From positions 1,817,239 to 1,881,238 of the forward strand of contig NZ_SHLI01000001.1 in NCBI RefSeq assembly GCF_004217415.1: a stretch of 64,000 bases of DNA, read 5' to 3'. The DNA comes from Spiribacter vilamensis (GTDB lineage Bacteria; Pseudomonadota; Gammaproteobacteria; Nitrococcales; Nitrococcaceae). Both the position numbers and the translations under genes were made by a program. The notes beneath the pieces are model-generated. The model was not told the DNA's origin and ran no database searches. It saw nothing but the letters and a program-made list of their open reading frames with translations. Each line of letters starts with the position of its first letter. Position 1 is the first letter of the stretch. This document shows positions 18,957-45,322 of this stretch, in pieces.

Positions 18957-21131
<2,175 letters not shown>

Positions 21132-21138
21132 GACCGCT

Positions 21139-23865
21139 ATGAGTGATCCCGACAAGCGCCTGTTGCTGGTGGACGGTTCGTCCTATCTCTACCGGGCCTA
21201 TCACGCCCTGCCGCCGCTCACGAACACGTCGGGCGAGCCCACCGGCGCGATCTACGGTGTGCTCAGCATGCTCCGGCGACTGATCGAGGACTACCGGCCC
21301 GTGCACATGGGCGTGGTCTTCGACGCCCCGGGCAAGACCTTCCGCGACGAGCTGTTCGCCGAGTACAAGGCCAACCGCCCGCCCATGCCCGACGATCTCG
21401 CCGCCCAGCTCGAGCCGCTCAAGGCGGTGGTCCGCGCCATGGGCCTGCCGCTGATCGAGGTGGGGGGTGTCGAGGCGGATGACGTCATCGGCACCCTCGC
21501 CGTGCGCGGTCGGGCGGACGGGCTCACGCTGCTGATCTCGACCGGCGACAAGGACATGGCGCAGCTCGTCAACGGCGGGGTCACGCTGCTCAACACCATG
21601 TCCAACACGACGCTTGATCGCGACGGTGTGATCGGGAAATTCGGTGTGCCCCCCGAGCAGATCATCGATTACCTGGCCCTGGTGGGGGATACCTCGGACA
21701 ATATCCCCGGCGTGCCCAAGGTCGGTCCCAAGACCGCCGCCAAGTGGCTCGGCCAGTACGGTTCCATCGATGGCATCCGCGAGAACGCCGGTGCCATCGG
21801 CGGCAAGGTCGGCGAGAGCCTGCGCGCGCATCTCGACGAGCTCGATCTGTCGCGCCAGCTGGCGACCATCCAGTGCGACGTCGATCTGCCCCTGGCGCCG
21901 CTGGCGATCCGCCTCGACAGCCCCGACCGCGACGAACTGGCCCGGCGCTACCGGGGGCTCGGCTTTAACACCTGGCTGCGTGAGATCGAGGCCGATGCCG
22001 GCGAGACCGCTGAGCCGGCCGCCGCGACCGCGTATCACGACGCCGCCGATCCGCAGGCCAGCTATCACTGCATCCAGACCGAGGCCGATCTCGAGGCGTG
22101 GCTCGAGCGGCTCGCTGCCGCGCCTTTTTTCGCCCTCGACCTCGAGACCGACAGCCTCGATTACATGCGCGCCCGGGTGGTCGGCGTCTCGTTCGCCGTC
22201 ACCGCAGGAGAGGCCGCCTATCTGCCGCTCGCGCATACCGGCCCGGATCAGCCCCGGCAGCTCGATCGCGATGCCACCCTGGCGCGGCTGAAGCCGCTGC
22301 TCGAGGATCCCGCCGCCGGCAAGCTGGGGCAGAACCTCAAGTACGACATGAGCGTACTGGCCAACCACGGCATCACCCTGCGCGGCGTGGTCCACGACAC
22401 CATGCTCGAGTCGTACTGCCTGGACGCCACGGCGGCCCGCCACGACATGGACTCGCTCGCGCAGAAATACCTCAACTACCGCCCTATCGGTTACGAGGCC
22501 GTGGCCGGCAAGGGGGCGAAACAGATCACCTTCGACCAGGTGGCCCTCGACCAGGCGGTGGATTACGCCGCTGAAGACGCCGACATCACACTGCGGCTGC
22601 ACGAGTCGCTGTGGCCGTCGCTCGCCGAGCGGCCCGGGCCGATGTCGGTGTACGAGTCCATCGAGCTGCCCCTGCTGCCGGTGCTCTCGCGGATCGAGCG
22701 CACCGGGGTGCGCGTTGATGCCGGCCTGCTGGCGACCCAGAGCCGCGAGCTCGCCGAGACCATGCAGCAGCTCGAGTCGCAGGCGCATACCGCCGCCGGC
22801 GGGCCATTCAACCTGGGCTCGCCCAAGCAGATCCAGGAGATCCTCTACGAGCGCCAGGGGCTGCCGGTACTGGCGAAAACGCCCAAGGGGGCCCCGTCCA
22901 CCGCCGAGTCGGTGCTCGAGGAGCTGGCCGCGCAGGGGCATGACCTGCCGCGTCTGATCCTCGATTACCGGGGCGTCTCCAAGCTGCGCTCCACCTATAC
23001 CGAGAAGCTGCCGACCCTGATCAACCCGCACACCGGGCGCGTGCATACCTCCTATCACCAGGCGGTGGCCGCCACCGGGCGCCTGTCGTCGTCGGATCCC
23101 AATTTGCAGAACATCCCCATCCGCACGCCCGAGGGCCGGCGCATCCGGCGCGCCTTTGTGCCCACGCCGGGCTATCGACTGATGGCGGCGGATTACTCCC
23201 AGGTGGAGCTGCGCATCATGGCGCACCTGTCCGGGGACGACGGGCTGCGCCGGGCGTTCGCCGAGGGACAGGACATCCACGCGGCGACCGCGGCCGAGGT
23301 GTTCGGCGGCGAGGCGGCGGCGGTCAGTGGCGATCAGCGCCGTGCCGCCAAGGCCATCAATTTCGGTCTCATCTACGGTATGTCGGCGTGGGGGCTCGCC
23401 CGCCAGCTGGGCATCGAGCGCGGCGAGGCACAGGCCTATGTCGATCGCTACTTCGAGCGCTATCCCGGCGTGCAGGCGTTCATGGACCGGACGCGGGAGA
23501 CCGCCCACCAGCAGGGCTACGTGGAAACGGTGTATGGCCGCCGGCTCTACCTGCCCGAGATCAACAGCCGCAACAACCAGCGCCGCCAGTACGCCGAGCG
23601 CACCGCCATCAATGCCCCGATGCAGGGGACTGCGGCGGATATCATCAAGCGGGCGATGATCGCCGTGGACGACTGGATCGGCCGGGAGCAGCCGGATGCG
23701 ACGCTGGTCATGCAGGTCCACGACGAACTGGTGCTCGAGGTGCCGGCCGGCGACGAGGCCGCGATTGGCGAGCGGATCCGCGGTTTCATGGCGGCGGCCG
23801 CCGACCTGGACGTCCCTCTGGAGGTGGAAGTCGGCATCGGTGACGATTGGGATACCGCCCACTGA
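21139..23865 (+). CDS. polA: DNA polymerase I
   Basis: A 908-residue DNA polymerase I, beginning MSDPDKRLLLVDGSSYLYRA. The 5' nuclease domain covers about residues 1-300 (GVEADDVIGTLA, GDTSDNIPGVPKVGPKTA). A 3'-5' exonuclease domain has the FALDLETDSLDYM carboxylates and so is probably active. The polymerase domain has DYSQVELRIMAHLS, AAKAINFGLIYGMS and QVHDELVLEVP, carrying the two catalytic aspartates. It fills gaps in repair and processes Okazaki fragments. It is downstream of uvrD and upstream of a probable sRNA. Confidence 0.98.
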   Translation: MSDPDKRLLLVDGSSYLYRAYHALPPLTNTSGEPTGAIYGVLSMLRRLIEDYRPVHMGVVFDAPGKTFRDELFAEYKANRPPMPDDLAAQLEPLKAVVRAMGLPLIEVGGVEADDVIGTLAVRGRADGLTLLISTGDKDMAQLVNGGVTLLNTMSNTTLDRDGVIGKFGVPPEQIIDYLALVGDTSDNIPGVPKVGPKTAAKWLGQYGSIDGIRENAGAIGGKVGESLRAHLDELDLSRQLATIQCDVDLPLAPLAIRLDSPDRDELARRYRGLGFNTWLREIEADAGETAEPAAATAYHDAADPQASYHCIQTEADLEAWLERLAAAPFFALDLETDSLDYMRARVVGVSFAVTAGEAAYLPLAHTGPDQPRQLDRDATLARLKPLLEDPAAGKLGQNLKYDMSVLANHGITLRGVVHDTMLESYCLDATAARHDMDSLAQKYLNYRPIGYEAVAGKGAKQITFDQVALDQAVDYAAEDADITLRLHESLWPSLAERPGPMSVYESIELPLLPVLSRIERTGVRVDAGLLATQSRELAETMQQLESQAHTAAGGPFNLGSPKQIQEILYERQGLPVLAKTPKGAPSTAESVLEELAAQGHDLPRLILDYRGVSKLRSTYTEKLPTLINPHTGRVHTSYHQAVAATGRLSSSDPNLQNIPIRTPEGRRIRRAFVPTPGYRLMAADYSQVELRIMAHLSGDDGLRRAFAEGQDIHAATAAEVFGGEAAAVSGDQRRAAKAINFGLIYGMSAWGLARQLGIERGEAQAYVDRYFERYPGVQAFMDRTRETAHQQGYVETVYGRRLYLPEINSRNNQRRQYAERTAINAPMQGTAADIIKRAMIAVDDWIGREQPDATLVMQVHDELVLEVPAGDEAAIGERIRGFMAAAADLDVPLEVEVGIGDDWDTAH

Positions 23866-23891
23866 ACTTCGCTGAAGGCGGCGCTGTCATT
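23864..23891 (+). promoter_or_regulatory. SigmaE/AlgU-type promoter of the polA-engB sRNA
   Basis: GAACTT (23864-23869) and TCATT (23887-23891) are separated by 17 bases, resembling the extracytoplasmic-stress sigma consensus GAACTT-N16/17-TCtgA. The -35 overlaps the polA stop codon. The predicted start, about seven bases after the -10, coincides with the first hairpin of the RNA at 23898. Confidence 0.55.
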
Positions 23892-23895
23892 AAAG

Positions 23896-24025
23896 GTGCG
23901 TCAGTGCCCGACGCGGTCCGCCACTCCCTCCCTTGGGTGCGGGCCAGAGCGATCCGGCCGTACCCCCCCCACGGTCGGATCAATCGTCCCCGGTATCCAT
24001 ACCCCCCTGGATGCCGGGGTTTTTT
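23896..24025 (+). ncRNA. Candidate small RNA between polA and engB (Spot 42/ErsA position)
   Basis: About 130 bases with no gene can fold into four consecutive hairpins: 23898-23914 (GCGTC/GACGC); 23915-23945 (9 pairs, one bulge, loop with CCCTCCC); 23951-23981 (11 pairs, loop of A and eight C); and 23988-24019 (12 pairs, loop with six C), ending in TTTTTT. All stems pair fully apart from G-U wobbles and one bulge. The polA-engB gap holds the sRNA Spot 42 in enterobacteria and ErsA in Pseudomonas. ErsA is about 130 nt and AlgU-controlled. C-rich loops suggest pairing with G-rich ribosome binding sites. There is no obvious Spot 42 sequence identity. Confidence 0.75.
23988..24025 (+). terminator. 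Rho-independent terminator (sRNA/polA)
   Basis: A 12-base stem (CCCCGGTATCCA with TGGATGCCGGGG, one G-U pair) with an eight-base C-rich loop is followed by TTTTTT at 24020-24025. The T tract overlaps the engB stop codon on the other strand. This is the clearest intrinsic terminator in the window. Confidence 0.9.
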
Positions 24026-24629
24026 ATGTCTGCAGCCAGTCGTCGAGCTGCCGGCGGGCATCATCCACCCCTTGCCGAGTCTGCGATGAAAAGAGCTGGG
24101 CGGTGGCCGCCGGACAGATCGCCCGGGCATCCCGACGCACCGATTGCAGCGTATTCCCCGCGCGACCACGACCGAGCTTGTCGGCCTTGCTGAGCAATAC
24201 ATGCACGGGCAGTCCCGCGGCCTCGCACCAGGTCAGCATCTGCGAATCCAGCGGGCCCAGCGGATGGCGGATGTCCATGATCAGGATCAGGCCGCGCAGA
24301 CTCTGGCGGTTTTCGAGGTACTGCGGCAGGATCCGCTGCCAGTGCTCGCGCACCGACGCCGGGGCCTTGGCATAGCCGAAACCGGGCAGATCGATGAGCC
24401 GCGCCGTGGCGGCATCCTCGGCCAGGGGAAAGACGTTGATCTGCTGCGTACGGCCCGGCGTCTTGCTGACCCGGGCGAGCTGCTTCTGGTCGGTGATGGC
24501 GTTGAGGGCGCTGGATTTGCCGGCATTGGAGCGGCCGGCGAACGCCACCTCGTCGCCGCGGTCCGCGGGCAATTGCGCGGGTTCGACGGCGGAGAGGAGG
24601 AATTGCGCCCGGCGGTAGTCTAATGTCAT
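24024..24629 (-). CDS. engB: Ribosome biogenesis GTPase EngB (YihA/YsxC)
   Basis: A 201-residue TRAFAC GTPase needed for large ribosomal subunit assembly. G1 is GRSNAGKS, G2 TPGRTQ, G3 DLPGFGYA, and G4 SKAD (usually TKAD). Length fits the family. It converges with polA and the candidate sRNA. A TAGACT hexamer on its strand at 24691-24686 may be part of its promoter. Confidence 0.96.
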   Translation of the reverse strand: MTLDYRRAQFLLSAVEPAQLPADRGDEVAFAGRSNAGKSSALNAITDQKQLARVSKTPGRTQQINVFPLAEDAATARLIDLPGFGYAKAPASVREHWQRILPQYLENRQSLRGLILIMDIRHPLGPLDSQMLTWCEAAGLPVHVLLSKADKLGRGRAGNTLQSVRRDARAICPAATAQLFSSQTRQGVDDARRQLDDWLQT

Positions 24630-24652
24630 TTTTCAGCTTTGAATCATTTAAA

Positions 24653-24682
24653 TTGACCCCCCGTCGGGGGCGTTGGTATAAC
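24653..24682 (+). promoter_or_regulatory. Probable promoter of the cytochrome c4 gene
   Basis: TTGACC (24653-24658) and TATAAC (24677-24682) are 18 bases apart. The spacer carries a small perfect inverted repeat (CCCCC/GGGGG). The cytochrome ATG lies 29 bases beyond the -10 box. Confidence 0.6.
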
Positions 24683-24711
24683 GCTAGTCTACCCAATAAC
24701 TATCGGACATT

Positions 24712-44559: not shown

Positions 44560-45147
44560 CTAACAGAGATGGATTGTGTGATCCGTGACCACCCGGTCCA
44601 GGCGCTCGTCCCAGGGATCGTGGGGGATGGCAGGGTGCTGCTGGCCGGCATGGGCCAGGCCCACGCGCAGCGGCCGCCGGCCCCGACCCCGTCCCGCGAG
44701 GGTCCGGTCATAGAACCCGCCGCCCCGGCCCAGCCGATGGCCGGCGGCATCGAAGCCCACCAGCGGCATGATCAGCACATCCAGCGCCGCGACCGGGCAC
44801 ACGGGGGCGTCGGGACGGGCCGGCATGCGGATGCCGTATCGGCCGGTGACGAGCGGGGTGGTCGGGCCATAACGACGAAACACCAGTCGCTGCGAGGACT
44901 GGATGACCGGCAGGTAGACACGCTTACCCGCCCGCCAGGCGGCGTGGAGGAGCGGCGTGGTATCGATTTCGCCATCGGTGGCGAGGTAGAGCGCGACGTG
45001 TCGGGCTCGGCGCCACGGTGGCAGCCGGGTGACACGATGGGCGGCCGTTTCGGCGGCCTTGCGGGCCGCCCGGCCACGGATCCGGCGCCGCCGGGCTCGC
45101 AGCTCGCGGCGCAGATCCGTCTTGGTGTCTGAGTGGGTCCCCATCAT
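44560..45147 (-). CDS. 5-formyltetrahydrofolate cyclo-ligase
   Basis: A 195-residue 5-FCL (YgfA family), which converts 5-formyl-THF to 5,10-methenyl-THF with ATP. Features are DLRRELRARRRR at the N-terminus, LYLATDGEIDT, and the GHRLGRGGGFYDR motif near the C-terminus. The ATG at 45147 (or 45144) lies within the 3' end of the 6S RNA, so the gene is probably expressed by read-through from ssrS. This is like E. coli ssrS-ygfA but even tighter. Longer readings would place the N-terminus inside the RNA and are rejected. Confidence 0.9.
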   Translation of the reverse strand: MMGTHSDTKTDLRRELRARRRRIRGRAARKAAETAAHRVTRLPPWRRARHVALYLATDGEIDTTPLLHAAWRAGKRVYLPVIQSSQRLVFRRYGPTTPLVTGRYGIRMPARPDAPVCPVAALDVLIMPLVGFDAAGHRLGRGGGFYDRTLAGRGRGRRPLRVGLAHAGQQHPAIPHDPWDERLDRVVTDHTIHLC

Positions 45148-45322
45148 GCCGTTCGGGCGTCGCCCTTGAACCCTTTGGTTCAGGTCGGGAAGGTCGAATG
45201 ACGTCTTAGGCTTTCCGCACGCGGCGGACCTGCACACCAACGGCATTACAGCCCCTTCCCTAAGGCGCATGATTGTAGGGTCAAGAATGCATAAGCCCGG
45301 TGTCGAACACCACAGGGACCCA
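45134..45322 (-). ncRNA. ssrS: 6S RNA
   Basis: The 206-base gap between zapA and the 5-FCL gene is the standard place for ssrS. On the minus strand it contains TGAACCAAAGGGTTCAAGGG, a close match to the conserved E. coli 6S segment CTTGAACCAAGGGTTCAAGG. The predicted ends close a terminal stem: TGGGTCCC (from 45322) pairs with GGGGACCCA (to 45134). The resulting 189 bases agree with the usual size of about 184. 6S RNA mimics an open promoter and sequesters sigma70 polymerase in stationary phase. End positions are estimates. Confidence 0.88.

Follow-up and report, generated by a model that had tools for sequence, protein, structure and literature searches.

The polA–engB gap and its predicted RNA

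We analysed a 64,000-nucleotide (nt) stretch of the Spiribacter vilamensis genome (hereafter the window; contig NZ_SHLI01000001.1, positions 1,817,239 to 1,881,238 of the forward strand), in which the gap between polA and the convergent gene engB holds a predicted, conserved small RNA (sRNA) gene that is, to judge by its promoter, very probably controlled by sigmaE (RpoE). The sequence supports a gene unit with its own structure, terminator and promoter type, laid out as follows in window coordinates.

23864–23869, + strand: -35 element GAACTT of the sigmaE/AlgU type, read directly; overlaps the polA stop codon TGA (23863–23865)
23886–23891, + strand: -10 element GTCATT, read directly; its TCATT (23887–23891) follows GAACTT after N17
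23898–24026, + strand: body of the predicted sX13/ErsA-type sRNA gene, ~125–130 nt, from model R1 and covariation; 5' end placed from the promoter
23898–23914, + strand: hairpin 1, GCGYCAGTGCCCGRCGC, loop AGTGCCC, from fold and alignment; nearly invariant across the order
23915–23945, + strand: hairpin 2 with CTCCCTCCCTT loop, from fold, covariation and loop counts
23951–23981, + strand: hairpin 3 with eight-C loop, from fold, covariation and loop counts
23988–24025, + strand: intrinsic terminator, made of hairpin 4 (six-C loop, 23988–24019) and T6 (24020–24025), from fold, terminator scan and covariation
20803–23865, + strand: open reading frame with polA (DNA polymerase I) at its end, the upstream neighbour; the real start is probably within the frame
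24024–24629, - strand: engB/yihA, the convergent neighbour

The segment from 23897 to 24028 folded with an energy of -68.4 kcal/mol, compared with a mean of -46.7 kcal/mol (standard deviation 3.9) for 200 dinucleotide shuffles, none of which was as good (z = -5.6), and a terminator scan detected its last hairpin, hairpin 4. A preliminary description of this DNA had pointed to a GAACTT-N17-TCATT promoter overlapping the polA stop and to four consecutive hairpins ending in an intrinsic terminator; the first was confirmed by direct reading of the coordinates and the second by the fold, the terminator scan and the T6 tract. The loops that it assigned to hairpins 2 to 4 (CTCCCTCCC, eight C and six C) were present as given. 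In the ensemble, hairpins 3 and 4 had open C-runs (unpaired 1.00), as did hairpin 2 for its CCC at RNA nt 33–35 (1.00), but its CCC at nt 29–31 was partly paired (0.37). The folded RNA contained no long open stretch and little open sequence besides the loops and the T6 tail. The loop of hairpin 2 resembles the ribosomal anti-Shine-Dalgarno sequence. A scan of 23500–24700 for sigma70-type promoters returned none (0.3 expected by chance), a result that is uninformative on sigmaE-type sites.

Two models were used to search for the RNA: R1, built solely from 36 loci of relatives and the window, and R2, built from 81 matches that excluded sX13 and ErsA proper and included loci recruited through sub-threshold scores of the ErsA model. 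On the S. vilamensis genome R1 scored the window RNA at 100.7 bits, its training set having included that sequence; the best other match (23.3 bits with R1, 15.4 with R2) had no promoter-like site and was rejected as a second copy. Among Rfam families at gathering scores, the window matched only 6S RNA, at 45134–45321 on the - strand (86.8 bits).

Conservation and mobility of the unit

A search of 95 relatives with the C-terminal 153 residues of PolA gave matches in 90 of them, at 92 places; the downstream region was fetched for 80, the 12 places dropped being 11 distant ones and one fragment. By its 5' hairpin core the RNA was detected in 36 of these 80 loci: the window's own family, with 23 loci, had it in 22, and 2 loci belonged to family f4 and 12 to the sister family f2. 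The own-family exception (G018) has a gap of only 6 bp, polA gave no match in G021, which is also of this family, and the two loci counted for G002 may come from a mixed assembly. Wherever the sequence fetched for these 80 loci contained engB, the gene converged on polA. As cut, the 36 RNAs were 108 to 136 nt long, and their alignment (A1) included gaps that are not multiples of three, which speaks against a coding function.

RNAalifold recovered four helices from A1 with 30 pairs, 24 of which change on both sides. Of the cells, 95.0% were paired, compared with 84.1% in shuffles (0 of 500 reached 95.0%) and 46.5% when the partners were slid by one column, no slide giving more. Hairpins 2 and 3 covaried as well as the terminator hairpin. 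Four of the five pairs of helix 1 never vary in A1, and its preservation is thus one of sequence and not of covariation. Hairpin 1 is nearly invariant within the order and the other stems are not. In a wider alignment of 81 matches (A2), which was fitted to the model and hence leans towards it, 29 of the 30 pairs changed on both sides, helix 1 included, and the C-runs of the loops persisted: CCCC in 78 of 81 matches for loop 3 and in 71 of 81 for loop 4, and CCYCC in 60 of 81 for loop 2. Stem covariation and retention of C-rich loops in relatives, whose absence the preliminary description had named as grounds for refuting it, were both found.

The element might be nothing other than the 3' end of polA, that is, a long terminator region or processed 3' untranslated fragment that has neither a promoter of its own nor a function in trans. 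Such an origin would fit with the promoter-like site overlapping the polA stop and with the quality of the last hairpin, which would end polA transcription too, yet it is at odds with the covariation of hairpins 2 and 3 just described and with the way in which the unit has moved. In the 12 loci of family f2, among them those of Aquisalimonas lutea and Methylonatrum kenyense, the whole unit of promoter, RNA and terminator is turned round to give the order engB, RNA, convergent polA, which was read on named contigs as well, and the promoter box is kept. One genome (G223) carries a tandem array of four RNA copies in the polA–engB gap (L146, 1091–1839, - strand), each after GAAC-N16/17-TCTGA, and a second genome of the same genus (G330) likewise gave four matches. 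The unit was also found away from polA. Alkalilimnicola ehrlichii AK92 has three copies, one of them 2.5 kb past the polA-linked copy and another on a different contig, and A. lutea has two; the extra copies of these two species, each with a promoter-like site, lie at L196 1805–1916, L168 1135–1248 and L182 2994–3100. A pattern scan of named genomes gave 33 stretches, of which 25 held 26 copies scoring 81–124 bits and 8 were chance-like. We consider it highly improbable that the element is only the polA 3' end.

Across the Gammaproteobacteria, R1 matches at E-values (which are rough) up to 0.001 occurred in 121 of the 369 genomes sampled and in 99 of 272 genera. The place of polA was known in 76 of the matched genomes, and a match lay within 3 kb downstream of it in 50 and not in the other 26. 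In one search that gave 50 polA-linked matches (49 genomes), orientation was that of polA in 44 and opposite in 6. The 29 loci L219–L247, which are the best R1 matches in the class after the window's own, carried polA, engB or both within ~1.5 kb on each side in 27 cases, and engB stood beside the RNA in six genomes that had been counted as polA-unlinked (G178, G208, G248, G024, G373 and G318).

The promoter and sigmaE

All 36 loci had a box reading GAAC or GAAAC, with GTC after it, 33–35 nt before the RNA core, whereas the distance from the polA stop to the core ranged from 31 to 209 nt in the 24 same-strand loci; the box therefore belongs to the RNA and not to polA. The strict form of the promoter, GAACNN-N15/16-GTC, was counted over 73 RNA sites (50 R1 matches from one search, 20 of 23 from another and the 3 extra copies) and was present in 55, as against a mean of 0.66 and a maximum of 3 in 100 shuffles. 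By R1 score, it was present in 37 of 39 sites with at least 80 bits, in 15 of 26 between 30 and 80 bits, and in 3 of 8 below 30 bits.

That the sigmaE of this lineage reads a GAACTT-type motif is indicated independently by sites of this kind before rpoE. RpoE was found in 40 of 40 relatives searched (39 over the cut-off) and once in the genome of the window, where GAACTT-N16-TCTAC lies 38 nt before the rpoE start codon (L218 748–774, gene from 786; G000:C1:419300-421800). Within 200 nt upstream of rpoE, GAACNN-N15-GTC occurred in 19 of 21 loci (the window genome's own and 20 fetched of the 40), compared with a mean of 0.23 in mononucleotide shuffles. In the Spiribacter genome paper, sigma32 and sigma54 are the only stress sigma factors named (PMC3832224); rpoE is nonetheless present in the genome studied here. 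The proposal of stress regulation made in the preliminary description gains support from these data, as the same promoter type precedes rpoE in the same genomes and also precedes the ErsA gene of G214, whose RNA exceeds the ErsA cut-off; there it reads GAACTT-N17-TCATA.

It is conceivable that the RNA is real and is transcribed constitutively or by another sigma factor, the GAACTT box being incidental. The strict motif is absent from 18 of the 73 sites, and both sX13 loci examined, in the regions upstream of 641 (L137, - strand) and upstream of 1616 (L244, - strand), lack it, having GAACC followed by TTATA or CTATAA and no GTC. We nevertheless judge this explanation quite improbable, since the motif is conserved far above shuffles and is of the same type as the rpoE promoters of the same genomes, and since ErsA is described as AlgU-induced (PMC5819304). 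The TATA-like stretch at the sX13 loci perhaps marks a switch away from sigmaE. The pattern GAACTT-N16/17-GTCNNA had no site in the S. vilamensis genome, because the sRNA site ends in GTCATT and the rpoE site in GTCTAC; an outline of the sigmaE regulon by this strict pattern was accordingly set aside as uninformative, as it misses even these two known sites.

Kinship with sX13 and ErsA and a proposed function

At lax thresholds the sX13 model (RF02232) matched the window RNA over its full length (36.7 bits, E = 1.8e-5). The same model exceeded its cut-off in 2 of 95 genomes, G065 (103.2 bits) and the congener G005 (50.2 bits), and gave 32.6–42.4 bits in further congeners. In the reverse direction R1 found the sX13 gene of G065 at 45.7 bits, and R2 found two sX13 genes at 51.5 and 50.1 bits. 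The window RNA shares with sX13 a place downstream of polA, a string of hairpins, C-rich (4C/5C) loops and a terminator; it differs in having four hairpins where sX13 has an unstructured 5' region and three hairpins (PMC3771888) and in having the sigmaE-type promoter that the two sX13 loci lack. sX13 is stated to occur only in Xanthomonadaceae (PMC3771888).

The likeness to ErsA was weaker in score. Its model (Pseudomon-1, RF01719) gave the window only 21.5 bits and exceeded its cut-off in 1 of 369 genomes (G214), the ErsA of which was matched at 23.8 bits by R1 and at 34.0 bits (E = 2.9e-6) by R2. ErsA and the window RNA share the polA–engB gap, with the ErsA locus (L145) lying after polA in the same orientation, and the promoter GAACTT-N17-TCAT(A/T). 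For the polA/engB C-rich sRNA superfamily that we propose, the single model R2 recovered the held-out sX13 and ErsA, with loci weakly recruited by the ErsA model in its training set. The view taken in the preliminary description, that the RNA is a counterpart of ErsA, holds for position, promoter type and a weaker homology, but by score the closer polA-linked relative is sX13 (36.7 versus 21.5 bits), which was not named there. The comparison with Spot 42 (RF00021) that accompanied it stands for position, the gap being the same in E. coli (polA-spf-yihA), and fails for homology: R2 had no match at spf of E. coli even with E allowed up to 10, and Spot 42 was not matched in the window either at gathering score or at lax thresholds. 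Spot 42 was consequently rejected as a relative and is a positional neighbour only.

Two further families were compared. Two loci beside engB exceeded the cut-off of anti-hemB (RF02837; L154 1491–1596 and L157 1509–1610) and scored 60.7 and 58.1 bits with R1, from whose training set they were absent; the anti-hemB model, from Burkholderia, gave the window 22.2 of the required 49.5 bits. Anti-hemB may thus be part of the same family, and we know of no tested function for it. For ar7 (RF02342), an alphaproteobacterial RNA described with three hairpins, C-rich motifs and a polA-type locus (PMC3771888), R2 gave 23.9–26.6 bits in five of nine loci, 18.2 bits in one and nothing in three, and neither polA nor engB was present within 1.5 kb at the nine loci.

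C-rich hairpin strings could also have arisen repeatedly at the same place, so that ErsA, sX13 and the Spiribacter RNA would be convergent and the models would score their C-runs alike. The 6C and Scr3202 models, at 40.7 and 38.7 bits on the window, were numerically above sX13; as they cover the last two hairpins only and remain below their cut-offs, we took them as convergence of C-loops and rejected them as relatives. The 8 chance-like stretches from the pattern scan, to all appearances unrelated, scored 13.7–31.8 bits with R1, which means that single matches of ~30 bits prove little without neighbours, and the sX13 promoter differs. Against convergence of the whole unit stand the shared neighbours and hairpin order, the identical promoter type in the case of ErsA, model matches in both directions, and the concentration of class-wide matches at polA (50 of 76 genomes within 3 kb downstream) or beside polA or engB (27 of 29 loci). 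We regard convergence as rather unlikely. On sequence grounds the Spiribacter RNA is a new member of the sX13/ErsA kind, with sX13 as its closest described polA-linked relative by score, and the families of sX13, ErsA and the Spiribacter RNA likely are one.

In experiments, sX13 represses mRNAs that have G-rich motifs near the start codon, acting through its C-rich loops and independently of Hfq, although compensatory mutants did not restore regulation and direct pairing was not formally proved (PMC3771888). The Spiribacter RNA combines this loop design with the promoter type of ErsA, which is induced by AlgU and forms with it an incoherent feed-forward loop on algC (PMC5819304). We propose that a free-standing sRNA gene between polA and engB would be transcribed by sigmaE upon envelope stress; that the resulting rigid four-hairpin RNA would present its C-rich loops in imitation of the anti-Shine-Dalgarno end of 16S rRNA; that these would base-pair with mRNAs at G-rich stretches used for ribosome binding or as enhancers; and that pairing would, by analogy with sX13, lower translation where the ribosome-binding site is strong and G-rich. 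Hfq was encoded in 40 of 40 relatives searched, and since the window RNA offers little open sequence besides its loops and T6, little dependence on Hfq is expected. ErsA, by comparison, has a predicted U-rich unstructured domain through which it is predicted to bind anr, and activation of anr needs Hfq (PMC8575079).

The pattern GGGAGGG-N2-12-ATG occurred at 39 sites, as against 17 for the reversed pattern. Candidate targets among the 30 sites fetched would include the starts of mraY, a D-Ala ligase-like gene, thiol peroxidase, purN, phaR and a Crp-type regulator; the matches for mraY (156.0 of 192.05 bits) and the ligase-like gene (45.3 of 243 bits), both obtained with the first 200 residues only, were below NCBIfam cut-offs, and two further candidates had no NCBIfam match. 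Duplex energies were computed without a control and were given no weight. The C-rich loops might instead serve protein binding or act as a sponge. The near-invariance of hairpin 1 in the order, which simple loop pairing leaves unexplained, suits such a role, whereas the repression of reporters by sX13 through C-rich loops and G-rich mRNA motifs favours mRNA pairing despite the failed compensatory mutants; we think a protein-binding or sponge role unlikely.

Beyond the promoter findings above, several results count against a sigmaE-dependent sRNA of the sX13 kind that blocks ribosome-binding sites. The window RNA falls below the curated cut-offs (36.7 of 50 bits for sX13, 21.5 of 50 for ErsA), an sX13 search of its genome with a stricter filter gave no match, and C-rich hairpins of other families reach 39–41 bits on the window. 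G-rich sites before ATG are common, which makes the predicted targets little specific, and the Hfq-dependent, U-rich mode of ErsA on anr implies that the mechanism may differ between branches. With these points taken into account, we still hold it to be probable that the locus is a sigmaE-dependent gene for an sRNA that acts in trans, blocking ribosome-binding sites rich in G in the manner of sX13. We also incline slightly to a wider view, in which ErsA, sX13, anti-hemB and the Spiribacter RNA would be branches of one ancient family present in about one-third of gammaproteobacterial genomes (GTDB), born beside polA/engB as a sigmaE-driven anti-Shine-Dalgarno mimic; its movable cassette of promoter, hairpins and terminator would have undergone inversion, multiplication to as many as four copies and spread to other places, and the Xanthomonas branch would have left sigmaE control.

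In the open-access literature searched there was no description of a unified sX13/ErsA family and no paper naming both RNAs, and among the matches listed there was no description of the Spiribacter RNA; an RNA-discovery paper mentions Spiribacter for a proX motif (PMC8632094). The analysis ties together RNA families that have been filed apart, and the answer spans the whole class. It suggests that in many bacteria envelope stress is coupled to a general restraint of those mRNAs whose ribosome-binding sites are strong and G-rich. Spiribacter, described in its genome paper as having very scarce regulation (PMC3832224), gains a likely sigmaE regulon, one output of which would be a non-coding RNA.

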